Source of the DNA: Mesodorylaimus sp. YZB2_4 | Taxonomy: Eukaryota > Nematoda > Enoplea > Dorylaimida > Dorylaimidae | Assembly (NCBI GenBank): GCA_030248295.1 | Contig: JASANH010001383.1 | Coordinates: forward strand, 1-64,000 | Length of the DNA stretch: 64,000 bases | Direction of reading: 5' to 3' | In this document: piece by piece, positions 1,950 through 50,000 of the stretch | Layout of the letters: the number at the start of each line of letters is the position of its first letter | Position numbering within the stretch: position 1 is the stretch's first letter | Made by a program: the position numbers and the translations under genes | Notes under the pieces: generated by a model | The model's database searches: none | The model's input: the letters and a program-made list of their open reading frames with translations, nothing else | Told to the model about the DNA's origin: nothing

Positions 1950-2561
1950 TTACATAAGACCACATTTGCCACCCCGTTTCTTCGTGCCATCACTTTTGCC
2001 GCCCTTCTTTCCCGATTCGTCCATAGTCAAACTCAAAGTACGTCGTTTTTCTAAACTCAATAACTGCTGGAATAATTCTTTGATATTTATATCCGCTTTG
2101 GCCGATGTTTCCACAAAACCACAGCCCCATTTCTTGGCCAAGGTCTGCGCAAAATCTTTGGTAACTTCACGTTGAGATTCTTCGTCCAATTTATTTCCGG
2201 CTAATACGACTGGAACCTCGCTCAGGTCATCGCCTTTCACTTCTCTGATCATATCGACGATAGGCTTCAATTCTTCCAGCGATTGTCTACTGGTTATAGA
2301 AAAAACGAGAACAAAAGCGTGTCCTTTGGAGATGGACAGTCGCTGCATCGCCGGAAACTGATGGCTACCAGTCGTGTCCGTAATTTGCAGGGTACACACA
2401 TTATTTTTATTACAACTAATTACTTGACGATATGTGTCCTCGATCGTGGGCACATAACTGTCCGAAAACGTGCCTTTGACAAATCGTAAAACTATCGAAC
2501 TTTTACCAACACCACCCGCGCCGAACACGGCCACGCGGTAGTCGTTGCTTTGCTCAGGCAT
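1950..2561 (-). CDS. DIRAS: Di-Ras-type small GTPase
   Basis: A 203-aa Ras-superfamily GTPase, uninterrupted in one exon. Visible motifs: P-loop GAGGVGKSS (about residues 14-22), switch [25 protein letters not shown] in place of the usual DxxGQ, NKLD for guanine specificity, ETSAK, and a C-terminal CGLM prenylation box behind a basic linker. The start [10 protein letters not shown] and the DTTGSHQF block match the Di-Ras family closely. Ser replaces the catalytic Gln of Ras; Di-Ras proteins are known to hydrolyse GTP poorly and stay mostly GTP-bound. It should sit on the plasma membrane after farnesylation (Met at the CAAX end). A good splice acceptor (TTTTTTAG) lies 9-10 bases before the ATG on the minus strand, so an upstream 5' UTR exon is likely. 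Confidence 0.96.
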
Positions 2562-5500
2562 TCGTCCGCCCTAAAAAAGGGAAAAGTTCAGTCATTCCAA
2601 GTTAAAAGTGAAAACTCAACGGCTGCAAACTATTAGCTGCCGCGCAAATCAAGTTTGAAAAGTTACTTTTGGCTTTGACTGATAAACACTATGTTTATTC
2701 GGAAGTCTCCTCCACTTTGCCCCCTTCCCCGAAGTGCTTTTGAGGTTTGTTGTGGTGCGACTGAACTCGATGATTAGACTAACTGATTCTGGGTTTGCGG
2801 AATGTCTGAAGAACATTCCCGAATCAAATGGAACATACCACAGGATTTTTGTACTGGTGGACTCCAAGACATGTCAAAAATGTACTGACGTCAAAACTCC
2901 TTCACGAATGTGGCCCTCTCGGATGTGTTCCCCTAATACGCCCCAGAATGCGACCCCATCGGATGTGTCTTCCCCTCTAATACAGCCTATCTAAGTCTGG
3001 GCCCCAATCGAAACTTTCTGTCCCTCGCGGAGACTTTGGAGTAAGCAAATTAGCAAGCACACGTTTAAGCTATCGATGACGCAAAAATTACACAATTTCA
3101 AATTTAAGCTACTAAATTTCAACATGATACTCCCACGAAGCAAAACTTTGAACAAGCAGCTATTGTGAAAACAGAATGGATCATAAAACGCAAATTAGGG
3201 TGCACGAACAAGTCAAAACGAGTGAATCGTTTTCTACATGTGGAAAACATAAAAACACGCGGACAGTTCGCAAACACGAAACACTCCCTATCAGAAAATT
3301 GATTTTACACAAAAACGTCTTTGTTCACTTTGAAGATGAATAACCATCATTTGCATCTGACAGGCCTAACATCATAGAACAGAGAGGAGGACGTGGAGTG
3401 TTTTTAGCTTCGCAGTGGGAGTGACAGAGAGTTTTTGGCAGCAGAAGCAAGGGGGTGTGAGCCCGAAACAAAAAACTGTAAAAATATTGTAGGAACCAGA
3501 CATGGTCGCATCTTAATTGTTTGCTCAGAAGCTTTGAAACAACGTTTCAAAGTTGAAAACCGACGTTTGCCGAGAAATGAAAAAACATTTATGAACAATT
3601 GAAAACCAGATAGCCATGGCTGCTTCTCTCAAAAGGCACCAGAATCCCGATCAGCCAGATTTTGCGGATTAGCTCAGGGTAGTCCCTCCTATCGGCTACT
3701 TGCGCCCGATTACTCACGATCTCGTCGATGTATTAAGCGAGACATTAAGCGCATTAGATGTCCTCATCCACCCGAGTCTCGTTTAGGATCACGTCGCAGA
3801 ATGTTACAGGCAATAGGGTTTGTATTGGCGAGGGGGTGTTATGGTTGGCTCAATCTAAGTCCGAAACCGCCGTCCCCTCCAACGCTTTCAATATATCCGC
3901 CTTCTTGTGTCCATTTTGAACATGGCACACAAAAAGGGCGATCAATTTTCCACCAACAGCCAACCCCATTACTGCACCATTGCGTCAATTCACTTAGAGC
4001 AGCTTCAAAAAAGAAGCTGCTAGTTCCGGTGGCGCGCGATAGAGAAGGCGAGGAGGACACGGCTCTTTTTCCGTCCTCCTCTCTTTCCCAATAAGCCCCT
4101 TGTGCCCCGAGCTCTTTTCGCGCTCACCCCTTACCCTTAGAGCGGGGGAAAGAGGCAGGCCGGTTCCGATAGTGCTCGGTCTAAATAACTAGTAATGGAA
4201 CTGACCCGCCCTCTCGCACCCATGAGCACACTAGCCGACATTCCTTAGGCGCTACGATAATCGGCTAGTCGGCGAGAAATATGTCCACGTTCAACATTAA
4301 TATTCAGACCTAGCAGCTCACTTCACTACATTTTCTCGGACAAAAAAGGAGCAGGTGATACGACGACCTTGATTGAGGCACCCGAGCGGAACGTTTCAAT
4401 TTTTGATCTTGCCCTTACACTTATCGTTAACAACGACCTTCTTAATATTAGGCGAGGGAATGAATGAAAAAATACGGGGAAAAAGCTTCTCTAAGGGGAT
4501 ATTGAAAACTTATTCTGATAATGCCTAAACATCTGCCATAAAATCTGAGAAAAACCACCTTTCATCTTGGCTAAGCGCCAAGATATCCCCATTTAAGTAG
4601 GGCCTTTAAAATACGCAAGAAGCATGTCTATTGTAAAATCTTTTATAAGATCGTTTCCTTCTTGCTCTCCTGACACGAAAATTATCAGGCCTGGCAAACG
4701 AAGGCAAAAAGAAACAAAAGGAGCTACATGGTTTCAGGCGGCCGTTCTGAACGGGCTCACCTAAATAGAGCCAGCGTTGAAATGGCTAAAGGGCAACGAG
4801 ATAAAATGGTGTCTCATGATCGAGGAGTGTTCCTAAGATGAATAGGCACCTATATATACCTAGCTCCTCGTTGGTTGAGACTAGGTAGGCCTAGGGGCGC
4901 AATAATAAAAATCTCCTAGTCATTTCCCTTGACGTCAATGGATAGGATGTAGTGGCATAATGAGCTAGGGCTCCCGATAAGACACACACATAGGCGCGTA
5001 CATGACTGCTGACAAGATATTTGTCCCGCCTTCGCAATCCCGCCCAAGTAGCAGCTAAGGACGTGGCCAAGAGAGACAGAGTCTAAATCTCACACTTACC
5101 AATTTCTAGATGAAACTAGATTTGCTAAATCGGCAGTCATGGCAGAGGAATGATCTAGAAAGCCATAGCTAATGAGGTTATGGAGTGATTTTAGGAAAAG
5201 AGAAGAAAACAAGAGGTTGGGGGCATTGGAAAAAAGCCAAACAAGCTTCCTCCCATCAAGCATGAAATTGAAACCGGATCTAAAGCAAAGCCTAATATCT
5301 AAATCGAAGGCACAATAAAAACATGCTTTTATGGGCTCCAGTCACATAACCAAGACTGACGGCGACTGCGTGAGTCGGCTGGTATTTGCCGACCTCGCCC
5401 GCTTTTCCATTACCTTAGCAGAATGGTGGAGAAGGAAAAAAGAAGCGGAGGAAATGGCTACTAGGAAACAAGACACGAAAAAGCACCATTGGGCCAGGAA

Positions 5501-15297: not shown

Positions 15298-18200
15298 ATG
15301 GCTGATTTGAACACGGACTCCACATTGTCATCACCAAATATCGGTGCTGTGGTAGAAAATTTAAGCAATAAAAAATTATTCGTCATTTTGGGGTGTTTAG
15401 CAATTTTACAAACTATTTTTTTCCTTTTGGGCGGTGTCGTTGGTAAGTGCATTTTTTTGGTGTACGCTTCTTCGAAATCCAATCTTACACACAAGTTAAG
15501 ATTCGGGTAGATAACGATGACTGATCTTATTGTACCCGGGGAGAACATTATTGTTTTATTGGAATTATTCACTCTAAGGAAAAACAGGGCAGACTTTGAT
15601 GCAACACTGATTGCAGAAAATTGATTCTGACAAGGCAATCGAAGAACCTCAAATTAGGCGAACACAGAACGAAGTTTAAAGCAGCGTGAGCTCTTTAGGT
15701 TAGTGATGGCTTTCGATCAATGTGACTGACCCTAAATTTGCATATATTCTGCGGTGCTTTTACTGTTTGGCCCCCGAGGCAAAGGCTGATATAAGGCGAA
15801 GCTTAAGTCTATACCAGACTAACGATAAGCCTAAGCCTAAAACCTATTATCAGCCTAAGCCTGAGCCATATACCGGCCTAAGCCTAAGCTAACCTATGCT
15901 GGGGACCAAACAGCAACAGTGCCCATTCGGCCCCGTGGTAAGTAGGGACAATAGTTGTAATCTGCAGTCGCAGGGTAAAAATGTTTCAGCACAGTGTCTA
16001 GAAGTGTGGGCATTAAAAAACACACAGTCCTTGGGCCTTAAAGAATCTTGCGGTTTGAAAGCTTATTTGAAACTTGGCACTTACTCGAACTGCGTGTGCT
16101 GAACACAATATTCTGGCAGGAATATGAAGAAGTTCTTGCACAAATTTCAAACTTGCAAACTAAAACGAATGTTGGGGCCTAAAAATTGAGGCAGTTATCC
16201 GGATTGCAGCTGCGTTCAAAAGGTAGTCAAAAATGGGAATGAGGATTTCTTGCACTTGACTGGATTATATTGAGCAGGCTATAAAACTTGAGTAGGTACC
16301 ATAATCGTAGCGCAGTAGACAGCCAAAAGTGCAAGCTTCAAAACCTCACTAGGCGAAACAATGTCAGACTTATGTACTTCACACTTCGAAACCTGTTTTC
16401 AGTGATGTATTTTTTCGTAAAAAGTAACCTGTACAGTACATAGATCAATTTCGCAAGGGGATTTTATGTCCTGTCCTACTTTATGTACAGCCAAGCACTA
16501 TCAACGCGCTCGAGGGTTAAGAAATGCATAAATCATCAATCATTTTTTACCAAGGCGGGAGTCGAACCCTTCCCTGTAAGGGCGCATCTAGAGTGAGAGA
16601 CCGAGCCCTTAACCCATCTGGCCACGACTCGAGATCCGGTTAAATAAAACTTTTTTACAGCCGCAATCCCCATTTACTTCGCTTTAGCCGTACTTTTTTA
16701 ATCAGCTGTTGCCAACTGCAAAAAGTTCAAACTTGGGCAATCAATATCATAGGGCCAATATTGCAGTCATCCATCCATCATGAGTAATTTATATGATATG
16801 ATGTCTCCGCTTGTGCCACAACACGGTAGTACCAGAATTGTATTGGCAATCATTGACAGCGGGGAAAGAGTAAGCACTGACCCAAGTGGCCCCTCTGTGG
16901 CAGTCCAGATCAGGATGGTGTGGTGGTTATTAAAGGACAGGTGTCCCATGCTGAATTGCTCTTTTTCAGCCCCTCAACCATCCAGCTACATGACCCATGG
17001 CATGAGAATGTGCGTGGATACGCATCGCGATAACGCCGATCATTGGTTCTACCTTCGTCCAGACGACAAGAAAGGATGTCGGAACTGGTTGGACAGCGGG
17101 CACGTTGAGGGCGATCCGCATTACAAGGTGTCAGTGAACGATGCCCGCGATATCGTATTCGTGGCACAGATGCCTCATGTCCGTGATGGAATTCATCTTC
17201 GTTATTCGCCTTGGTTCCAAAGTCTGCTCGGAGTCCTCACAATCCAGACGCAGTACATGCCTCCATCGAGGTACCCCCAATGGAAAATGTACTCGGACCC
17301 CGTTTTACGACTGGAAGTTCGAATGGGCTATAAAACTACGCTCGAGTCATCCGAATGGCACGAATTGACGTCGGCGACAATAACTCGCAAATTGCGCTGC
17401 TCCGATCCAGAACCAGTAAGAGATGTCATTTATTTACTTTACAATTCAAAATGATGCAAAAAGGAGGCAGGTTTATTTATTTTAGCGAAGAAGTTTTGAT
17501 GGAGTTTGTTTTTTAGAAACGTGAAGGATCAAATTATGGCTGCGAACCCGTGGAGTTATTTGAACTGGGATCAGTTGATTACCCATTTTACTTGATCAAT
17601 ATTCGAGTACCACACAAAGTTGCCAACTATAGCGGGGTCAGCAGCGACGACCAAAACGCTGGTATCGGGCGCTTGACTGGATTTGATCTTGTTGTAAGTG
17701 CCAGTACGAGGAGGAGGTTGGGAATGTGGTGGTGCCGGGTGGGACTTGAAGTCGTCTGAGATTTTTTCGTGCTTTGTACAAAGTCATGATCAAGTGATGA
17801 CTTAGTACGCGTGGAATCATACGGATGAACCTTCAGCAACATCGCACATTTCTAGCAGGAATGACGCAAATACAACAATCATTGTTAGACGCTGTGGGAA
17901 GACAAGGCAGGAAAAAGATGAAATCACGTGTGGTCAAGTTAGCAGCTATCGTCTCTGTTATGAATCCTGACTTGTATTCCCTCGATTATATCCCTTTGGA
18001 TAAAACCATTACGCGAAATATGAAAACTCATTTTAGGCGGCCATTTTTTGGTTTTCTTTTCATAAATTTGCCTTATCATTTTTATTGTCATCACAGTCAA
18101 AATGCTTATTTTTAGCTCCTACGGTACTTACCAGTAGGGAGGCCTAAATAATAGGATAGATCCTTGCCAGCATCGACCGATCCGGCCGAACTCATCCGCC

Positions 18201-24547: not shown

Positions 24548-25447
24548 TTATTCGAACTCCAAATTTTTTATCACTGGGTATCTTTCCTTATCACCAAAAA
24601 TCAGGAACATCTCGCTGCTGTCAATTCCATCAATTTTGGAAAATTCAACCACTTCGAGTTTTGGGGCAATCATAAATTTAAATACGTATTTGATCTCCCT
24701 TATATCACAACAACTAAATCGAAGGGTCTTTAAAGCGGGACACAAAATAGGGTCTTTAAGAAGAACATTTGAGCCAAATCGATATTCGCGGAATTTGAGT
24801 TCTTTTAAGCATGGATTTTCAATTAGTGTTTTAAAAATTTCAAAATTTATTCCGGGTAGTGAGCGAGTACTCGGCACAATTCCATTTATCAATTTTAACT
24901 TTAGAGATTGTTCTTGTAATATATTCAAAAGTGAGAGAAAAAATTCTAATATCAGTTTTGATACCAGTGTCAACTCTAAATTTAATAATTCCAGATTCTT
25001 AGACTCGTTTAAAACATCGCCAAGATTTTTAAACCATTTTGGCCAAAACGCGATTTCTGATGGCTGAATCAAATAAAGTTCCATCGTTTTCACTTTTCTA
25101 AGATCAGACATCAACTGTAATACAATATTCCAATCGATATCTCGCCAAATGGTCGCTGAAATTCGGGTTATGCTTTGACATATTCTTTCCAAAATAGCAA
25201 ATGACTGATCACTTTGATTTAACTGATTAATATCGATGGCATATGTGCTTGACTTGTCGTGCCGAACAGATGGTGGACACGGCGAGACTATGAGAGTGGA
25301 GTACTTTTTATAGACCCTCTTTAAAAGTATTTTTTCCCAGTGCTTGGATACCTTCTCCAATTGCAGGAGTTCTTCTGGCTCGAAACCAAAGGTAAAAATA
25401 TGTGCAAGAAGTTCATCAGGAAGAGAAGCCGCCGTGCATGCAGCCAT
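24548..25447 (-). CDS. F-box protein with leucine-rich C-terminal part
   Basis: A single-exon ORF of 299 aa. Residues about 8-45 form an F-box: SLPDELLAHIFTF, then LLQLEKVSKHWEKIL with the conserved Leu-Pro, Val-Ser-x-x-Trp pattern. F-box domains bind SKP1 and bring substrates to SCF ubiquitin ligases. The rest has repeated leucine-rich segments (NLELLNLELT, CLKELKFREYRF, ALKTLRFSCCDI, KLEVVEFSKIDG), consistent with degenerate leucine-rich repeats as in FBXL-type proteins. Substrate unknown. The start at 25447 keeps the F-box complete. A polyadenylation-type AATAAA lies on the minus strand about 60 bp after the stop (near 24485). Lack of introns, unlike its neighbours, suggests an expanded F-box family or a retroposed origin. 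Confidence 0.82.
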   Translation of the reverse strand: MAACTAASLPDELLAHIFTFGFEPEELLQLEKVSKHWEKILLKRVYKKYSTLIVSPCPPSVRHDKSSTYAIDINQLNQSDQSFAILERICQSITRISATIWRDIDWNIVLQLMSDLRKVKTMELYLIQPSEIAFWPKWFKNLGDVLNESKNLELLNLELTLVSKLILEFFLSLLNILQEQSLKLKLINGIVPSTRSLPGINFEIFKTLIENPCLKELKFREYRFGSNVLLKDPILCPALKTLRFSCCDIREIKYVFKFMIAPKLEVVEFSKIDGIDSSEMFLIFGDKERYPVIKNLEFE

Positions 25448-27462
25448 AAGACTGGCTTGAGGGGACGAGAAAGAACAAACTTTTGAATGAAGTGATGTTG
25501 GTTAAACTGCGCAGGGAGCTTCTTGGACTTCTCTTTAACCAATTCACATTTTCACTTGAGTATCTCTTGGAGGAGGAGCGGTTCTTGCTGACGATCTAGC
25601 AGGTACAGGGTAAAAGTCGACCTGCAAGCATCGCGAGAAGTCGGCATACGAGTAGATTTTTCTGAAATTGTCGCCAGTAGTACGTTATTCTACGACCATG
25701 GAAAAAGACTTCTGAAATGGTGATTAGCGTACAGCACAGCCTCGCACCAGAAATGATCAGGGACCCTAGCCTAATTTTTGTTTATAAACAGGCCTTGCCG
25801 AAGCAGGGCCACCCAAAAAGTGTTAAATTTACTCCTTACGTTCCCCCACACGGAAATCTTTAGTAAAAGGCGAAGATTTAAACGAATTGTGGAGGAACCA
25901 GAGACAGCGAAGGAACTCTCACTATCTACTATATCAGCATGCATGAAACATCAAGTGCACGGGTCGGAGAAGGAGGGTAAAGCAATCGATATACAATACG
26001 AGGGCCTGAGGAGGGGGGCACAGTACGGCGATGTTGATCATGCTACGATGCAAGTTAGTAACTTTTAAAAAAGATTCGGATGTTGAGTGATGTGGTATAA
26101 TGAAAATGATGGTGATGTGACGATGGCGGAGTTGATGTCACCTTGATGAAAAAATCAAGGCGATTCATAAGATCGACTGCCTGATGTCCGAAAAAAACCA
26201 GAGAGAGCACCATTTTTTTTTCGTATTTCTTGAGGCAGTCGTGGCCACACACAACATGAGAAGGGGACGGGAGTGGCATAAGATACGCGCTTATTTTCAC
26301 AGGCTGCATAAAACTGAAGTAAACGGGATTCTTGAAAGAGTTTCCTTCTCTGATCTTGAGTAAAAGTTCGGAAAAGTCAGGTGAGCGACCGAAACACGCC
26401 AGAACACGCTCATATCGAGTAGGCACCCCTCTGCGAAAGGCGGGTTCTCGAGATCGAAACTGTCGTGCCGTTTATTAAACCAAACTCGAGCTGGTTATTT
26501 CGCTTTTTTGAACCCCAAATTTAAATTTAAGCTCCTTTGAGTTGGCATTCTTATCAGACTTATTCGTACTACTGTATCTTGCTGTTGATTTCTTTGAGAT
26601 CATTTTTATACTTTTTAACTCTTAGGCATTCTCACGTTTCTGCCGAATTCCAAGCCGCTGTTTCTGCAGCTAACGACTTTCGTGGACTGTTTGGCTCAAT
26701 CATCGAAGCGCACAGAAAATATGACTAAACTGCTACCGAACTGATCAAGCTAAAGAGTCGAGTGAAACTGACACCGCTCAGGTACAACCGCCCATGCTCA
26801 GGCTCAGGACAGGTGATGGATGATGATGATGATAAACCACTGAACGAATTGCAGTGCTGCAGTGATCTGCTACAAGCTGGAGGAAGTATGGAAGCTTTGA
26901 CTTGAAGCGCAGGTCTGACTTTTTTAAATCTGACTTTTTTAATCGTTTTATACGAACGAGTATCCAGTCATTGTCCTCGCAGCCATGGCCCAAGGATTTG
27001 TTTCTCAGGGTTTATGATTCTGTTTTCAACTTTATGATTCATAAATTTGAAAGTCTGTCGAAAAGGTGAGTAATAGCAACAACGTCGATAAACCTGTTTT
27101 TAATTATTATCATGTTTGCGCCAATGAGTAACGCTGTCATTGTATTGTTTTCCTCTTTCAGGCGGAACTGCACTTTGAACATCATTTCTGTGTGCCAGGC
27201 AGGCAGCTCGTTCGAATAAAGAAAGAGTGGGTGGCGCTGATTTTTTGTGGTCATCACGTCAACAATAATATCCTGGGTGATTTGAACTAAACGCATTTCC
27301 ATGTATGGTAACGAGATAAGGCTTGTCACACTGACGCAATGTGCAGACTAGTCTTCTGACACGTATGGCATCAACACCGCTGTCCTTTAAAGCAGCAACA
27401 CATCGCCAAAGCACCCCTTAGCGCGAGCTGTTTGCGAAAAAGTGAATTATATCTTGACAAAC
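25448..27462. other. Gene-free stretch between F-box and aminotransferase-like genes
   Basis: No gene called. It should contain the promoters of two divergent genes, the F-box gene (-) and the aminotransferase-like gene (+). Small open frames show no domain motifs. A segment at 26625-26728 (AEFQAAVSAANDFRGLFGSI) looks protein-like but has no partner exon that I could find. Confidence 0.4.
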
Positions 27463-30400
27463 ATGGATGGGAATGAGAATGAACGTGACGATAACTCAGT
27501 TTCGGATGAAAGTCTGACAGCCTTCCATTTTAATGGGTTCGTTGAACCGCTAAATTTCGTCGAACCAGAGGATTCGGATCAAGAATTTGAATTTGAATTT
27601 GAAAAGTGAGCGCATAATTTTATATTTATTCTGGTTTTAAAAATGGTTGCCGAGTTTCCTGGAAAGTTTTCTCTCTCAAATATGCCCCTGTGGCCTTGAT
27701 TGGAGCCTGCGGTTTAGGCCTTTTAGTGGCATTTTGAGACACGGACACGTTTTTTGACGAAATTGCATTCAAACGCAGATTTTTCAGGGATCCAGATTCA
27801 GCTGAAGATAGTGGCGCATCTGGAAATGAAATAACGTATAAAGGCGCCAGTATATCGTTCGATAAAACAAGTGACGATGGATGTCTAGCGTACACTGGTG
27901 TCCGCTCGCAGACTTCGATCGATGCCTACGATCAGGAGGATAGTCTCAGTAGCTTATCGAAAGATGTGCCAAAATACAGTTCGTCGAAGACGAGATATCA
28001 AAGTATTGATCACGACTATCACGAAAAATCGATCGCAGATGATGAACTTCCAGAAACTGAGTACGTGACAGCGGTGGAAAAATCCATTCTAAATGGCATA
28101 GGTAAGCTAGAAAACAGGAATGTGTAATTTTGTTTAAGAGTTTCTCTTTGTAGAAATCAATGAAAAACAAACATGTTGCATCCCTTTTTTGTGCGACTCA
28201 ATTCTTAATCCTCATCAATTACTTTTTGGATGGAAAAGTTCCATGCCGTGGTCTTTTCAGTTTTCCTTTCGAACATGGTACAGTAAGTCGGTTTACTGTG
28301 CTGTGACGATCGCTGCTCCAAATGGGGTTGTCTCTAATTTTTAACCTTGGAAAGTAAAATCTATGCAGTTGGAGGAAGAACTTTTTAAAAATTGAGTACT
28401 GACACTAGGGACACTTCTTGTAAATACTGTGAGAAACAACTTAATTTCGTGGGACAATAAAGTTCGCGGATTTCGTGGTTCGTCGTCGACCGCGAAAATT
28501 TCTTTCCGCGAATTTGTCCTGTACAAAACATAGCTCGGACAGGAAAGCTAATTTAGAGCTTGTCATTTGGAAAATTGGAGGGGAAATAGATTAAAACATT
28601 TCGCTACTCCGGTCTTACTGAGCGCAAGCTGTCATGGCTTGTTGTGAGATTGGACCAATTACAGTTTGTTCCAAATAGGATAGCTTAACAGCTTATAATT
28701 TACGGACTCAAAGGATTGACGACCACACTCAAACTTTTTGCAAGGACCTGGCCGCTTTTCTGAAGCAGTTTTTGTTCCTTGCTGAACTCTAAGAATAAAC
28801 CTGCAAAAATTGAATTAAAATCTGTTAGACACTGCGTGGTTTTCAGATAGTTTTGGATGTTCTGGGATTATTGGCTAACCTGTATTACAGCCGATGCATA
28901 GAAATAAAATTTGATGGTTAAGACAGGAAAATTGCTTGGCTGCACGGCAGGAAAAGCAATGTGAGGAAACACAGCGGCCGCGGTGGTGCAGCGGTTCGGC
29001 ATTCGTCTCCCCGTATTGCTTGGGTTCGATCCCCGGTTATGGAGGTCGGTTTGCGAACCATAAACCCTCGCTGACCTTGCGCGCCAGGCAGTGGGTGACT
29101 CACCCGGTACCGTCGAGTGCTCCGAGTGCTGAGACGGAAGCCAAACGAGTAAGCAGTCTCAGCCGTCGAACACCAAGTGGGGTCAACGCCCGCCCGCCAT
29201 CGTGCGAGGAAGTCGGTTTCCTGTCCAGGATGCCCTCACGTGGAGGTGCTCCTACTGGAGACACACAGAGGGACGTCGCTGTGTCCGCCGGTCCCCGCAC
29301 AGCCCTGCTTACGACACCGCTGATCGCAAATTTGTGTGGGCTTCAAGCCTTCTTTTGTTAAAAACTTGATGGCAGACTGATGCGCAAAATTTTTCAAATT
29401 TGTAATTTCTCTGAGCCACTTCCAAATAGATTACCATATCTCAAGAACTCATGAATGGATCAGCGTGATTTATTTGTAGGGATTCTAGTGGGATGTGTGG
29501 CAGTGTAAAGTACGAATTTCACTGCTGCAGGTCACGCGAAAGGTACGCAGGCTACGAACTTTTCGAACTCCGCCCGCTTTGACTGCTGGCGGGCTATAGG
29601 CAAAAGCGGGCCTCAGCCCACAAAAATTTTGAAACAAAAAAATGTGAAGAAACACAGGCGTAGACTCACTGTAAATGATGAATCCAATACATACTTAAGC
29701 CATGGTAAGGAAAGCTAGTAATGCGTACTGTGTGTGCGAGAAAGGAAAAGCTAAAACGGACATAGCGTTGGAATGCACTGCTTGGTGGCAGTGATTGAGA
29801 TACGCGCCCACGTGAGCAGCAAAAAATAAGAAAAGTTGGATGAAGCACGGAACCGCGAAATTTTTTTTCCGCGAGCATAGCCGAAATTGGGAAACCTCGA
29901 AAGTTTCTTACTGCGAAACCAAGTTACTTTACAGTATGCGATTACATAACATAAGCTCATCATGTCAAAAAAATTTAAATCTCCCGCCAAACTTACCGGC
30001 TCGGCTTCCCGGCATTTTTCATGCTGATGTAAGAGATCATTTTACGATGTTACACGTTTCATCCTTATCTTTTTAGTTGACATTTTTTATTTTGAGTTTG
30101 ACATATACTCGTAATGTAACGTTACTTTATTCTCTTTTTTACATGTCTTTCAGTGCTTGAGTGCAGTCTAACTGCTTCGCTGAAAGTAAAATCAATCAAT
30201 CAATCAATCAATCATCTGATTATTTAGTTTTCTTTTCTCTTTGAGAAAAAATTTTTGCTGGCGGTCGGCTTTGGCGCGAACCTTGCCATCCTGTAATCCA
30301 CGCATAACTAACACTCCATTCATCAGAGTTCTGGTTGCACATAACGTTAATACATGTTATGCATTTTCAAGTCGAGAGTCGACCAAAAATTGACAATTTT

Positions 30401-32951
30401 TACAGAATCAAGAAAAATATTTGAAACTACAACAGTTTTCGACATTTTTGACTGAACATCACTGATGTTGCTCCAGGATGCACAATTTTAGGTCATGGGC
30501 TTTGTCAACTTTACTTTCGACTTCCAAACACAAATATTCCGAGTTCACGCCCATCAACGACACAAAATGGGCCATGACATTTTTACATCGAATCTTGAAA
30601 GAATCACGACGAATTACGAAAACTGCAAATCCCTACTCTGAACTACCGAAACAATTGTTGGAAGACATTGACAAAGTGTTCGAATTAGCCAAGCAGAAAC
30701 CAGCTCGATTGAAATCCGTCATTGGTGTACATGTGGCCCCAGTTTCTGGCGAAGGGCGATGGAAAGACTTGGCAACACTAAAAATTGTAGTCGATAAAGC
30801 TCAGAATCGGAAACCACCACCCGGAGCACCAACAACTGAAGCCATTCGTGATCGATTATCTCAGCTGGGCTACGCAGTCGTCTCCTATTATTCGCAGAGA
30901 TACGCTTTAAGCGAAACAAAACTGCGCGCATTTGTATTCGATACTGGAAAAGATTTCAAAAAGTTTGCAGTCGATACGATCGCGAGAGAAGCATTATTCG
31001 CTTTAGCCAAGAATAAACAATCCGTATTATTGCCACGACCAAACCATCCAACAATGAGTATCTGGTTTGAACTTTTGCAAAATATGAATAAAATCACACC
31101 TGTATATTATAAGCGGAATCCGAATCAATTTTGGAGTTTAGACATGCTCGACCTAAGATTTCAATTACTGACTAATAATTCAATCGCGGCCATGTTTTTA
31201 TCAAATCCAGCTTACAATTGTGGTGGAGTTTGTACATACGAAGAGTTAGAATTTTTAGAAAAACTTTTGCATAAATCTGGGACAAGTTTAGTCGCGGAGG
31301 AAACGTTGGATTATTTGGTTTATGATACCCATTTACAAAAATCGATTGGTTTCTTGGACGTAAGTCCACGAGTTCCAGTGGTCATTGTTAGCACTTCGAA
31401 TCGATGGTAAGCTTAGTGCAGTTGGCGGGAATTTTAAATTCAAGCACGTAAACCTTTAGCTTTCGCCAGTTTTTATCAGGCTATTTGTGCGGGCGATAGT
31501 AGGAGTCAAAATTTTTAAAAAAAGTGCACACACTGTACATAGTGGCTACATTGAATTTCAAGAAAGATATTCTGGCCTTTGTAAAGATACGCAAATTCTA
31601 AGTTTCACTCACTTTCATACGCCCGATGTTGTGAAAATAACTCCTAAAAAGTGCATGTGTTTTGGTAGGTGTCATAAGTTTTCCGTATTCCCATTGCCAA
31701 ATGCGCTAATTTTAAAATTTGACATTCAACTTGGATGACTTTTTTCAACGAATTGCGGTATTTTTTGGTTTACAGTACATCGAGTAAGAAATCAAACAAA
31801 GACGCTGATTAACGCATAACTGACAGTAAGAGTAAGCAAAACCAGAATTTCAAACTCGCGCGCTTTGTTATCGGGATTACTGGAAGTCAGAGTACCTCTC
31901 CGATTACACCACAATATCTCTAGATATCATTGTCTCAACATTGCGCGCATGAAAAAGAATAAGATTTGGAGCTTGAGCATATTTTTAAGCATTGCATCAA
32001 TGGTCAAAATATCTTTTCGAATACATGCAGCAGCTACAATGCACTCGTCTCAATTACTTGATAGCATCGAAGTGGAGCCCCTACAGACTCTGTACGGAAG
32101 GAGATACGAGCTGTCTACAGGCTACTGTATGTTGTGCGTTTAATGCCAGAAGGTGGTGCTGTTTCATTCAGTAGGTTCTATGAAACAGTCTGTCTTTCAA
32201 ATGCAAATGTTTCTCAAATTTCCATGAAAAAATAACGCATTAAAAATGCGGGAAGACCCCGCGTAGTAGCTTTCATTAAAAATACACACCTCGCTGATTC
32301 AAAAAAGCTCAAAATCCTCTTTCGGATTTAAAAATTATTGATGGCTCCAGAAGTTTATCACAAATCTTTGGAGTTGCAGAAAGATATGAACCAGTGAATC
32401 GAGAAACAGCTCGCATACACTTTTTTAGGAGAATATTTGGCGGAGAAGGCCCTTACATCGCCTGGGCTTTAGTATACGACCCTGAAAATCGCCTGCCTCC
32501 ATATCTCTATGAACGACTGGCTGCACTTCAATCGAGTCAATCAATTCAAATGGAATCGTTGCCCAAACCAAGCGCACTCTCAGAAGTTCTGTACCACAAC
32601 GGATGGCCGAGTGACATTCGTCGATATCTGGCCACCAATGTGGATATTGCGTGTAGCATTCTCAATAAAGCCCCCGGTCTGAAGGTGGCTCCTGGAAAAG
32701 CTGGAACTTTATTACTTGTCCTAGTGGATTTGGAGAAGGCCTTTGGAAACAAGTTTGGCAGCGATGTAGATTTTGTATCAGCATTGCTTCATGAAGAGAG
32801 TGTCATTGTTTTAAGCGGTTCCATATTATTTGGTTGGCCAAATTGCTTTGCATTGGAAATTTATATGCGTCGAAGATCATTTCTGGAAGCATGTGAAAGA
32901 ATTGAAGAATTTTGTTCACGCCATGTCCTACCTGAATATGAATTGCTGTAA
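27463..32951 (+). CDS. Tyrosine-aminotransferase-like protein, probable pseudoenzyme
   Basis: Proposed exons 27463-27605, 27788-28101, 28261-28282 (22-nt microexon), 30477-31406, 31480-31523 and 32380-32951 stay in phase and give about 674 aa. The first 160 residues are acidic, serine-rich and unlike any aminotransferase. The rest follows tyrosine aminotransferase (PLP fold type I): VLLPRPNHPTMS for ILVPRPGFSLY, SNPAYNCGGV for NNPSNPCGSV, AEETLDYLVY for ADEIYGDMVF, and RRSFLEACERIEEFC near the C-terminus for MMLEACSRIQEFC. The key positions are changed: the Asn of NPxNP is Tyr, the Asp that holds the PLP ring is Glu, the Schiff-base Lys region reads STSNRW (Asn where Lys is expected), and the PGWRLGW arginine segment is FVRAIVG. 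Exon 5's donor (GTGCAC) is weak and its end is the least certain point; exons 1-3 could be a separate gene. A SINE lies in intron 3. Confidence 0.72.
28974..29345 (+). repeat. tRNA-headed SINE, family A, copy 1 (about 370 bp)
   Basis: Head: GCGGCCGCGGTGGTGCAGCG (A-box region) and GGGTTCGATCCCCGG (B-box). Body: GGTCGGTTTGCGAACCATAA, then GTGGGTGACTCACCCGG, then CAGGATGCCCTCACGTGGAG, GTGCTCCTACTGGAGACAC. Other copies are at 37932, 50112 and 54192 (reverse). It lies in intron 3 of the aminotransferase-like gene. The open frame across it is a by-product of its GC content. Confidence 0.85.
30190..30214. repeat. (AATC)n microsatellite
   Basis: About six units of AATC within the intron of the aminotransferase-like gene. 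Confidence 0.9.
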
Positions 32952-34543
32952 GAAGCGAATCAATGAATGAATTCTGATACATTCCGGATGCGATTTTGCC
33001 GAGGTGGTCGGTCATTCACGTGAGTAGTAAAGGTAGATCACTGTGGCCACATGTCGTCCATTACTAGTAAGGTCGTATTTCAAAGATGCGGTATTTCTTT
33101 GCGATATACTGTATGCATGTAATTTTTTGAACATGTTTTTTTACAATAAATTTATTGTAAAGCTTGTATCTTTTGAGGTCTCCATAGCAGACTTCTGAAA
33201 GATTACTCAAAGTTGCGAGTTGAAAGTCTTCTACAGAGGGTTCGCTGGGCGAGTTGAATAGCTGGTACCGTAACGTCGGCCACAGATTGCTGATGTCACC
33301 ATCCCTGACAGGAACCGTCAGGTCTTTTGCGTCATCGCAAATAGACATTGCGTTTAGTCATTTCCAGTTAAAGGTAAAAGAAATCTCAAATATGGTGCAA
33401 ATTTTCAACTCACCGCTGGAAATCATTTGCATAGTCACCCTCGAGTGCGCATACTATGCATGTGGCACCGCGAAAACGGCAGGTTTAGATTTTAGGATCA
33501 AAGTTCTTCCAAATAACTGCTCAGCACTCCGGCAGCAGTAAACTTATTGTTAGTTTCTCTCCTCTTTCATGCTCTTCCTCTCTGTCGCGAACGCAAGCAA
33601 GGATCAAGGTTGTCATAGCATAGGAATGCTAGTGATGTAAAGTGAGAATGTAAAGGTGGTGATAGAGGGTTCTGGAGATGATGAGAGTGTCGTTTCTGCG
33701 TGAATCGAGTGTACGGTTCGTTATCAAGTGTGTCTCCAAAATATACTATATTTCAATTAAATCAATGTGTGATTCCGTCGTCGCAGCGTCAATTTCCAAT
33801 GCGCGATCAATCGACGACACTCTCATCATGACATCGTGACAGGGTGTCCGCAGACAAACAGTAAGCCAAAGGATACTGTTACGCGGTTACGCGTTACAGC
33901 AACACAATTACGCGGTACCTACTGCACCAAAACGGTGGGGAAACTGTTTGAGGGGAAAATTATACTCGTAACCAAATGGATTCTTGCAGAAAAAACTGAG
34001 GAGGATTGAAATGCATATATTTGCGGTCACTTTTTCAAATCCTCGGGAATGTACAGTAGCGCGCGAGTTTGACTCTGCACTCGATTAGAAGGGTGACTCT
34101 ACAGTACCATGACACTAATTGTGAGTCGTTCATGGATAGGTTTTTATGACATGGTATTTGCCACAACCTGCCCAATTTATAAGGCATGCTAACCGAAGTT
34201 TGCATAGCTGTGTGTACCTTCTAAAATATCTGTGAAGGTCTAACATTCAAATCACTGTTTCATTTATTCAGTGTGCTTTTTGCTAAGAAATGCACCCACT
34301 TTTGCGTGGGGCAGGGATCGAGAATCTGATACTTGAACTGTGTGTCTCTAATTAAACTTTAGTTTGCAGATTTATGTCTTAATTTCACTGCCAGGAGTCC
34401 AATTTCTTTGCAGCAATTGATCAAGCAAGCAATAAAAGGGCTCACTTTGGAAGCAGGATTTCATTTTCACTCACAACTCGAGCCTGTGATCGCTTGTCAT
34501 TTATTTCAGATTGGAAAAAGTTTTGTTTTGAACTTGTTGAAAA
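32952..34543. other. Gene-free stretch before the peptide genes
   Basis: No exon recognised. It contains the LTR-like segment at 33583-33841 and should hold the promoter of the first peptide-precursor gene. Confidence 0.4.
33583..33841. mobile_element. LTR-like or foldback segment
   Basis: It starts TGTCGCGA and ends TCGTGACA, an 8-base near-perfect inverted end of TG...CA type. Inside are a perfect 16-base inverted repeat (ATGATGAGAGTGTCGT at 33678-33693, complement at 33814-33829) and an ATTAAA. No target-site duplication or internal retroelement coding is visible. Either a solo LTR or a small foldback element. Confidence 0.35.
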
Positions 34544-47009: not shown

Positions 47010-50000
47010 TCATGATCTCACTCGCGTCGTTTTTGTCGCATGATCGTGACTAACCATAATAATATCATCCGACTTGATAGGCGAATGCGTCAATGGGGCC
47101 TTCGACGCCCCATCTGATTGTTTAACTTTCCATTCATCCGCCAGTTTCATCAATAATATCTTCAGTTCCCGTCGTTTCGATGATACCCTTTCCGCTGGGA
47201 ACCAGTCAGTCATATTCTTCGAATTCGTCATCACTGTGGCCCAGAATTTTTCTCCAATATTTACATTTGAAGTAGGGATTTCCATTTTCTCATCAGTTTC
47301 ATACAGTCCATTGAACAAAAATCGTTCAGCGTATTCCAATAAAAAAACCCCACAATCAGACCAGTTATTTTGTTGAGGAGCGATGGGATAAAATGATTTC
47401 CACGGATTAGGTGACGTAAATTCGCGAATACCAGCGTTCGATTTCCTCGCTGTCCATTCTGCAGCCAAATAATCTCGAATCATTTTTGTAGTTTTATAAT
47501 TCGTGGCCCCTTCTTTTAGCGAATCTAATAAAATTACGCATGGCTGTTTCAAAATCTGACGACGGGTCGATTGTGTCATTAGGCGTGGTTTTTTCGCTGG
47601 GGGCGGCGCAAAATAAGCGCTTGTCGTCTGATATGCTTCGTCATAAACGGATAGCGTATTATTCTCGGACTCGGAAGGCAGTAACGTCGCACTCATTACG
47701 CCAGGACCAGGTTGAGATGACCCAGCTTCAAGCTGTTCCAGTGGACTTGTAGCAGATGACGGATCGGGACCCTGAAAACAAAATTGATGAAATATGTAAG
47801 GAGATTATGAAAGTTATGCCATGTGCAAATAGTTTAACGGCATTATTTTCTCAAATTTTTCTAATTACTGGAACCATACCCCTCCAATCCTAATTCCTGT
47901 TATATGAAGATATTTCGAATTTATCAAGACCGTTTACCAGCTGTAAGTGCAAAGTTTTAGTGCACTTGTTGACATCAGAATCATCGCCTGAGAAGGAAGC
48001 AGCATATTCCTCTATACTGGACAATACCCTCCCTACATCCAAGGTCAGTGTCACGCCAGCACAGCTCATGTGCCTGAATAGTGCGGTGCACTCGGAAGGG
48101 GGCGTTCAAGACAGCGTCAGTTCGGGATCGGGATTTCCAGAGTGTTTTTTTTTAATTTTCAATTCGCTGCAGGTATCCTACAACCCACCCCAAGTAGCCA
48201 GCAAATATAGAGTCAAAAACTTTTTTTGCTCAGTATTTATAATTGCATTCAAAATCAGGCAAGCAGAATAGGGGAGAATCATTCACCGATTAGCAAACAA
48301 ATCCCTTCCTTCCTCTTTACCAGTTCAATCATCTGCCAAAGGTACACCAGCTCCACAACATTCAATCCCGACCATTTTTTATCGGGATCCCGAACGAACG
48401 CTAGTTTAAGACTCAAAATGCTTTCAAGACAGGGGCTGGGTCATAAGAACATGGGGCTTTGCCATGAATGGTCAGCGCTGAATCCTTGTCCTACGGTTTT
48501 GAATCGGTCTAGATCCGTGCTGATGCCGAGGTACTGCACACGAAAGCAAACCCCCTCTGCAGAGTCTAGCTGTCCCCCCAACACAATCTAGCCTGGGAAT
48601 GCTTAGCAAATGCGGATTCTCCAACGTGGCTGGGCGATTTAGAAATTGAGATTCCTGAAAACTTTGCGGCTCCTAGAGGTACCTACAGTATTATGTCACA
48701 TATGAGCACGCAATCTTACCCAGCTCCAAGTGCTGGCCACAACCGCATCAAAACTTATCTTTCACCATAAACCTGGTCTTCAGCACAGCCCAGCATCGAC
48801 CGATCTGGCCAAACCAATCCGCCGATCGGAGAAGTAAAAAGTTCCTGAAACGATCCGACTACTGGATCAGCCAGATTGGTTTCGCTGGATCGGATCGGTC
48901 GATGCTGGGCTGTGCTTAAGACTACGTAGGCTCAATTCTCGTGTGTCCTAAATAGTGGTCAGACTGAGAGAGACAGTGCAGGTCGGTGGGGGTGCAGTGC
49001 CAAAGACGTCAACAATCCCCAACACCCTTACAGTATTTTTTGAAGCGAATCAGCCAGACCCTGGATCGGATCGGTTGCTGCTGAAACACAGCCAGCCCAT
49101 ACTCACCTCCTCTTTCACTTCATCACCCGGATCGTCTCCATCCATTTCTGACTCGGCATAAACTGGACCTTCCAAATTTGGATAACAAACGATAGCCAGA
49201 TACCAATGGGCATCCTCATTAATTGGTATTAATATAAAGTCTTTTTCGAACAAATCCACATTTTTCGTCCACCTAGCAACTTTGGAATGCATAATTTGAT
49301 ACTTCTTCAATTGTCCATCATCGCCGTTCGTTCCTTGTTTCGACGAAGCGAACTTGGTCCAAAAATAAGTCGAGAATACATGAACCCGTCGCTGCTGTTC
49401 AACTGGCAGCACGTGTACGAGATAATCCAAATAAAAATCGATGATGGTATCGTTTAAGAATTCACCATCTTCCAAACAAGCCAAATCTGTATCGTGCACA
49501 GTGATCTCACCTCCAGCTATAGGTACGTAAGAGAAGAGCACTTCAGGCTCTTTTAGTCGTGATCTGGTTACATTCAAGTTCGCTTCATGTTGCAATATAA
49601 CTCGAGTCGTTGGTTCGTTTACTCGTTTTTCTTGCGTGGCCGCGATTACTGATGGTAAAATATGGACCAGACGAGGAGACGAGGACGACGGCTGACTGGC
49701 GGTTATGACTGCGTGTCGAATTCGGACATTTCCAATCACTGTCCTCGTAGTCGTAGGCTGGCATTGGGCGAATGATGATGGTGATTGGGTAGCCGTTGCT
49801 GCCGATGACGAATTCTCTGAATGCAATATCGATAAAGCTGTACCAGCACCTGAAAAAATTGTTCATATGCTAATTAGCTTAAACTCGAATGTTTTGCTGC
49901 TCTCGCCCTCATACGTGCCATTGCGTTTGTCTTCTAACGCAGTCTTTTGAATTTACATTTAAAGGAACAAATGATATTTATGTGCTGTCATCCTAAACGG

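Follow-up and report, generated by a model that had tools for sequence, protein, structure and literature searches.

The window analysed here, the whole stretch of 64,000 nucleotides from the start of contig JASANH010001383.1 of the nematode Mesodorylaimus sp. YZB2_4, carries on its plus strand a gene that is homologous to tyrosine aminotransferase (TAT). Two long open frames, 30466-31410 and 32298-32951, were read directly from the window, and our model of the gene joins them with upstream segments into a 672-residue frame of five exons with GT-AG borders and phases 2, 1, 2 and 2 (Table 1). The first two exons of the model are tentative, since they were placed by splice signals and phase, and their likeness to the frames upstream of the paralogues described below is not clearly greater than that of shuffled sequences (for exon 2, 107, 434 and 76 of 1000 shuffles reached the score). 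The other features recognised in the window are listed in the same table.

Table 1. Features of the window (a slash marks an exon border)
Feature	Position	Strand	Description	Evidence
Ras-family GTPase	1950..2567	-		
Wntless GOLD domain	16753..17451	+		
F-box protein	24551..25501	-		
U5 spliceosomal RNA gene	25791..25906	-		70 bits, model positions 1-117 of 117
Exon 1 (tentative)	27463..27605	+	MDGNENERDD..., acidic N-terminus; phase 2 end (GAAAA/GTGAGC)	Open frame, consensus donor, phase-matched join
Exon 2 (tentative)	27788..28101	+	Acidic, Ser-rich; phase 1 end (ATAG/GTAAGC)	Open frame, TTTTTCAG/ acceptor, GTAAGC donor, phases fit
Exon 3	28154..28277	+	...SILNPHQLLFGWKSSMPWSFQFSFRTW; phase 2 end (ACATG/GTACAG)	tblastn with paralogue exons
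Exon 4	30492..31406	+	N-terminal part and most of the TAT-like large domain; ends STSNR + TG/	Paralogue matches
Intron, phase 2	31407..32428	+	GTAAGC...TTTTTTAG; 1022 nt	Same junction in three paralogues
Exon 5	32429..32951	+	RIFGGEGPYIAWALVYDP... to EACERIEEFCSRH...ELL stop; small domain and C-terminus	51-63% identical in paralogues
AATAAA, possible polyadenylation signal	33145..33150	+	About 194 nt 3' of the stop	Pattern match
Ulp1/SENP protease family frame	47013..47804	-	Probably an exon of one gene with the next	PF02902
Ulp1/SENP protease family frame	49053..49862	-	Probably an exon of one gene with the preceding	PF02902

A search of the assembly (145 Mb, 1067 contigs) gave at least three paralogues besides the window copy, which are named here by their contigs, C21, C6 and C16. 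They match exon 4 at levels of 39% (C21), 40% (C6) and 45-50% (C16, in three pieces), and the pairwise identity within the family over exons 4-5 is 41-52% (six pairs, 388-441 codons, with 67 codons of C16 around its frame breaks excluded). In each of the four copies an intron interrupts the same codon (CGATG/GT...AG/G), which is joined straight to an exon beginning xxFGxxG and gives RW-R/M/M/K-x-FG; the intron at this shared junction measures 802 nt in C21, 59 nt in C6 and 115 nt in C16. Exon 3 is also conserved across the four copies; its counterpart in the paralogues is a short exon ending in ...W/gt, such as PHQLLFGWKS...RTW in C21. When the three paralogue exons were used as tblastn queries against positions 1-31000 of the window, they matched 28198-28278 with E values of 1e-12 for C21 (70% over 27 amino acids), 5e-10 for C16 and 1.5e-5 for C6. 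A search of the stretches fetched for six canonical TAT loci of the same genome gave no counterpart of exon 3, the best E value being 0.09.

These comparisons changed the gene structure proposed in the initial annotation, which had started the first exon at an ATG at 30477/30478, placed a mini-exon of 44 nt at 31480-31523, assigned intron phases 2 and 1, and taken FVRAIVG as the counterpart of the PGWRLGW segment of TAT. The direct splice of exon 4 to exon 5, from the donor GTAAGC at 31407 to the acceptor at 32427-32428 (TTTTTTAG/GAGAATA), is in phase 2 and yields STSNRW/RIFGGEGPYIAWALVYDP, and the family does not use the mini-exon. Because the 59-nt intron of C6 is too short for an extra exon, and because the junction is shared, the mini-exon was rejected as an artefact, and the counterpart of PGWRLGW becomes FGGEGPYIAW, as read through the direct splice. 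Similarly, the ATG at 30478 is not the start, because it lies 5' of the splice acceptor at 30490-30491, which the conserved exon 3 joins in phase 2; the first exon of the initial annotation thus begins after this acceptor, is fed by an upstream exon, and is flanked by introns of phases 2 and 2.

The relationship of the gene to TAT was supported by several comparisons. The 672-residue model scored 49.5 bits against PF00155 over residues 358-656, above the curated cut-off of 19.7; the product of the first open frame by itself scored 33.1 bits, also above the cut-off, and that of the second by itself 18.1 bits, just below it. Against TIGR01264, the equivalog model of eukaryotic TAT, the window model aligned over positions 12-402 of 403 with 109.2 bits, far below the cut-off of 474.25, whereas the canonical TAT on contig C14 of the same genome passed it with 561 bits. 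The closest solved structure for both open frames is a tyrosine aminotransferase, and for a profile built from three family members the best PDB match is mouse TAT (3pdx, E 2.9e-34). Furthermore, hhalign of three family rows against three canonical rows gave a probability of 99.7% and an E value of 8.7e-26. The long open frame collinear with TAT described in the initial annotation was thus confirmed, as was the retention of the C-terminal LEACERIEEFC, which is common to genuine TATs. Single-sequence AlphaFold models of exons 4 and 5 of the window copy alone had mean pLDDT values of 39.5 and 34.8 and were discarded.

The same genome contains at least five whole-domain models of canonical TATs and a sixth, partial one, located on contigs C14, C30, C23, C209 (two genes about 9 kb apart) and C83 (one exon seen). 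These models are 67-76% identical to each other, and their number is unusual for an animal; animals often have one TAT gene. COX1 gave 15 matches in the assembly, spread over 11 contigs (C73, C273, C741, C47, C56, C1, C66, C225, C380, C489 and C299), several of them with TAA or TAG stops, which suggests mitochondrial DNA copied into the nucleus; the COX1 match on C73 has an ND4-like frame close by. Read with ATA as Met, TGA as Trp, AGA/AGG as Ser and AAA as Lys, COI makes sense, and this code, together with the Wntless and Ras-family genes of the window, points to a non-flatworm protostome.

The catalytic residues were compared in a MAFFT alignment of the four family copies and five models of canonical TATs from the same genome. 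We take the roles of Asn194, Asp222, Tyr225, Lys258, Arg266, Arg386 and Tyr70 (aspartate aminotransferase numbering) to be those general to fold-type I. The Asn, Asp, Tyr, Lys and both Arg residues are present in all five canonical models, and all of them are replaced in all four family copies. In the order window copy, C21, C6 and C16, the Asn-type position is Y/I/F/V, the Asp-type position E/E/N/E, the Tyr-type position L/M/L/I, the Arg266-type phosphate Arg of PGWRLGW Y/T/P/S, and the Arg386-type substrate-carboxylate Arg A/A/A/T, where the canonical GAIRFVM has become NCFALEI in the window copy. The segments NPAYNCGG, AEETLDY and STSNRW, with which the initial annotation had illustrated the losses, were found where it had located them. 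Its list can be extended by the substrate-carboxylate Arg, by the phosphate-loop Ser (TSGCSHA, changed to DTGKDF), which is replaced in the three readable copies while C16 is masked for its frame breaks, and by the Tyr70-type loop. The canonical YNGYGP of this loop, which in TAT-type enzymes reaches into the active site of the partner, corresponds to NRKPPPG, PHA-SPS and SYKFQGR in the three readable copies and is neither kept nor conserved.

The identity of the residue in the Lys column depends on the aligner, and it is never Lys under either alignment. In the MAFFT alignment, which has no gap here, it is Arg in all four copies, and the phase-2 intron is then at the same place in the family and in the canonical genes; in the gapped alignments by hhalign and hmmsearch, it is Asn in the window copy, Tyr in C21 and Asn in C6, and the intron is then one codon off. 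Most of the old pocket positions differ among the copies, with the exception of the Arg/Trp pair of RWxxFG. The four copies have in common structural blocks that also occur in TAT, together with a few new blocks (RWxxFGxxG, AWALxYDP and FxxxxxxRR).

In trees with the TATs, the four family copies formed one clade with support of 100/100. This clade has a very long stem, with 2.39 and 1.51 changes per column, and where it branches among the TATs is uncertain; we therefore dropped the dating of its split from TAT. A pairing of the window copy with C16 was starred in one tree and unresolved in the other. Because the four copies form one fully supported clade, the losses at the active site most simply occurred once, before the copies split.

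Over exons 4-5, an unbroken frame is found in the window copy and C21 alone. In C6 a single in-frame TGA, 40 codons before the stop, takes the place of a Trp that is retained in the other three copies, and exon 4 of C16 contains two frame breaks in an otherwise conserved frame. These lesions may be recent real losses, alleles or assembly errors, and their presence in two of the three paralogues means that part of the family may be decaying. Selection was assessed from the differences by codon position and from a maximum-likelihood codon model. Over the six family pairs, the differences at the first, second and third codon positions were 0.38-0.47, 0.26-0.35 and 0.64-0.71, and omega = 1 was rejected in all six (LR 100-175), as it was in all ten canonical pairs (LR 214-323). 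Since dS is saturated, with estimates running to very large values in three of the six family pairs and five of the ten canonical pairs, the evidence was limited to these two kinds of result, and no point values of omega are given. In a neutral simulation, in which the 483-codon frame of exons 4-5 drifted to 66% amino-acid identity, about one lineage's share, none of 500 runs ended with one stop or fewer, and the mean was 10.6 stops. Owing to the saturation of dS, the constraint is an average over the long history of the family, which does not by itself prove the present-day maintenance of the window copy. The initial annotation had named a dN/dS near 1 together with stops in relatives as the sign of a dying pseudogene; omega = 1 is rejected in every paralogue pair, yet among the three paralogues C6 and C16 carry disabling lesions, and only C21 has, like the window copy, an open frame.

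We consider it probable that a family of at least four copies arose from a TAT gene, that its PLP site was lost, most simply once, before the copies split, and that the product was then kept as a non-catalytic protein. It can hardly be credited that the gene encodes a working aminotransferase that was modelled incorrectly, and that a missed exon supplies the SxxK and Arg segments, as the initial annotation had allowed for. The 1022-nt intron of the window copy has room for such an exon, but the same junction is found in all four copies with introns as short as 59 and 115 nt, which makes this very unlikely, and the Asn, the Asp and the second Arg are lost within exons 4 and 5 regardless. An improbable explanation is that of a decaying pseudogene family, some copies of which are still open. 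The TGA of C6 at an otherwise kept Trp and the two frame breaks of C16 are what such decay would produce; however, these lesions might be of recent origin, alleles or errors of the assembly. The window copy has an uninterrupted frame of 672 codons with GT-AG sites (its first two exons being tentative), C21 is free of lesions in exons 4-5, the copies differ above all at third codon positions, and neutral drift would leave about 10 stops per copy.

Two further explanations assume a functional protein of another kind. The family might have become a new enzyme with PLP-independent chemistry in a remodelled pocket, involving for example the invariant Arg and Trp of RWxxFG. The conservation of RWxxFGxxG among four copies that are otherwise only 41-52% identical would agree with this, but the other old pocket positions vary (Y/I/F/V and Y/T/P/S) in a manner unlike an active site; this variation speaks against new chemistry there, and we know of no PLP-independent fold-type I aminotransferase, so that we regard this explanation as highly improbable. 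Somewhat less unlikely than either decay or new chemistry, though still doubtful, is a heteromeric pseudo-subunit, which would pair with one of the active TATs of the genome, as LCB1/SPTLC1 does with LCB2, and tune its stability or activity. The partner could come from the at least five TAT genes whose catalytic residues are complete, and SPTLC1 is a precedent among homologues of PLP enzymes, since human LCB1 is described in PMC3794620 as lacking the PLP lysine and functioning as a heterodimer. However, completion of the active site of a partner seems unlikely given the YNGYGP-type loop of the three readable copies: because this partner-reaching loop is not conserved, a shared site of the SPTLC1 type is disfavoured, whereas pairing with an active TAT is not. 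We consider a self-standing protein with a binding or regulatory role likelier than a subunit that would complete the active site of a genuine TAT.

The best-supported reading is that of an old pseudoenzyme family derived from TAT, and its function is probably one of binding or regulation, judging from the sequences. The proposal of the initial annotation, that the gene encodes a pseudoenzyme kept for a non-catalytic role, stands in this form, with the catalytic residues lost in all four copies and omega = 1 rejected; against it stand the lesions in two of the three paralogues, which could mean that the family is being lost. Since the losses are shared by three relatives and the protein has been under selection, it probably has a job other than catalysis. 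According to this reading, an ancestral TAT gene would have lost the PLP site, most simply once, ahead of the splitting of the copies, which would then have been retained as a non-catalytic protein. The protein may still fold as a TAT-like body; because the Schiff base presumably could not form, there would be no transamination, and the protein would work via the binding of a partner or a small molecule, and the N-terminal extension would be an additional segment for contact or localisation. As a tentative possibility, the family may be a multi-copy, non-enzymatic group with the TAT fold and a new N-terminal extension, for instance a sensor of tyrosine or of its keto acid, or a regulator of the expanded active TATs.

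The family shares with TAT (TIGR01264; PDB 3dyd and 3pdx) collinearity over nearly the whole domain, the C-terminal EACxRIxxFCxxH and the VP...NP framework, and with the TATs of the same genome the phase-2 intron at the identical place (or one codon off in the gapped alignment). In contrast to TAT, it lacks the PLP- and substrate-binding residues, carries an insertion of two to three residues in the phosphate-Arg loop, has a conserved extra N-terminal exon for which the stretches fetched for the canonical loci gave no counterpart, and lacks the PRPG/FPLY intron. Among other homologues of PLP enzymes, SPTLC1/LCB1 descends from another family, the alpha-oxoamine synthases, and AZIN1 and ADC have a different, alanine-racemase-like fold type. 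A human pseudoenzyme census (PMC2748086) lists SPTLC1, ADC and AZIN1 as PLP-enzyme homologues with non-enzymic roles; the first, without the PLP lysine (PMC3794620), resembles the window family in this respect, and the latter two are homologues of ornithine decarboxylase turned regulators. SPTLC1/LCB1 differs in forming a known heterodimer, whereas the window family has no known partner, and AZIN1 and ADC differ in their link to antizyme, which the window family does not have.

Well-known pseudoenzymes derived from PLP enzymes are few, such as SPTLC1 and the antizyme inhibitors in the human census (PMC2748086). Among the matches listed in the open-licence literature, no description of a TAT-derived pseudoenzyme family was found, although pseudoenzymes of PLP enzymes in general are a known kind. 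With four members beside at least five catalytically complete TATs in one genome, the TAT-derived family offers a natural experiment on the uses of the fold without its cofactor.
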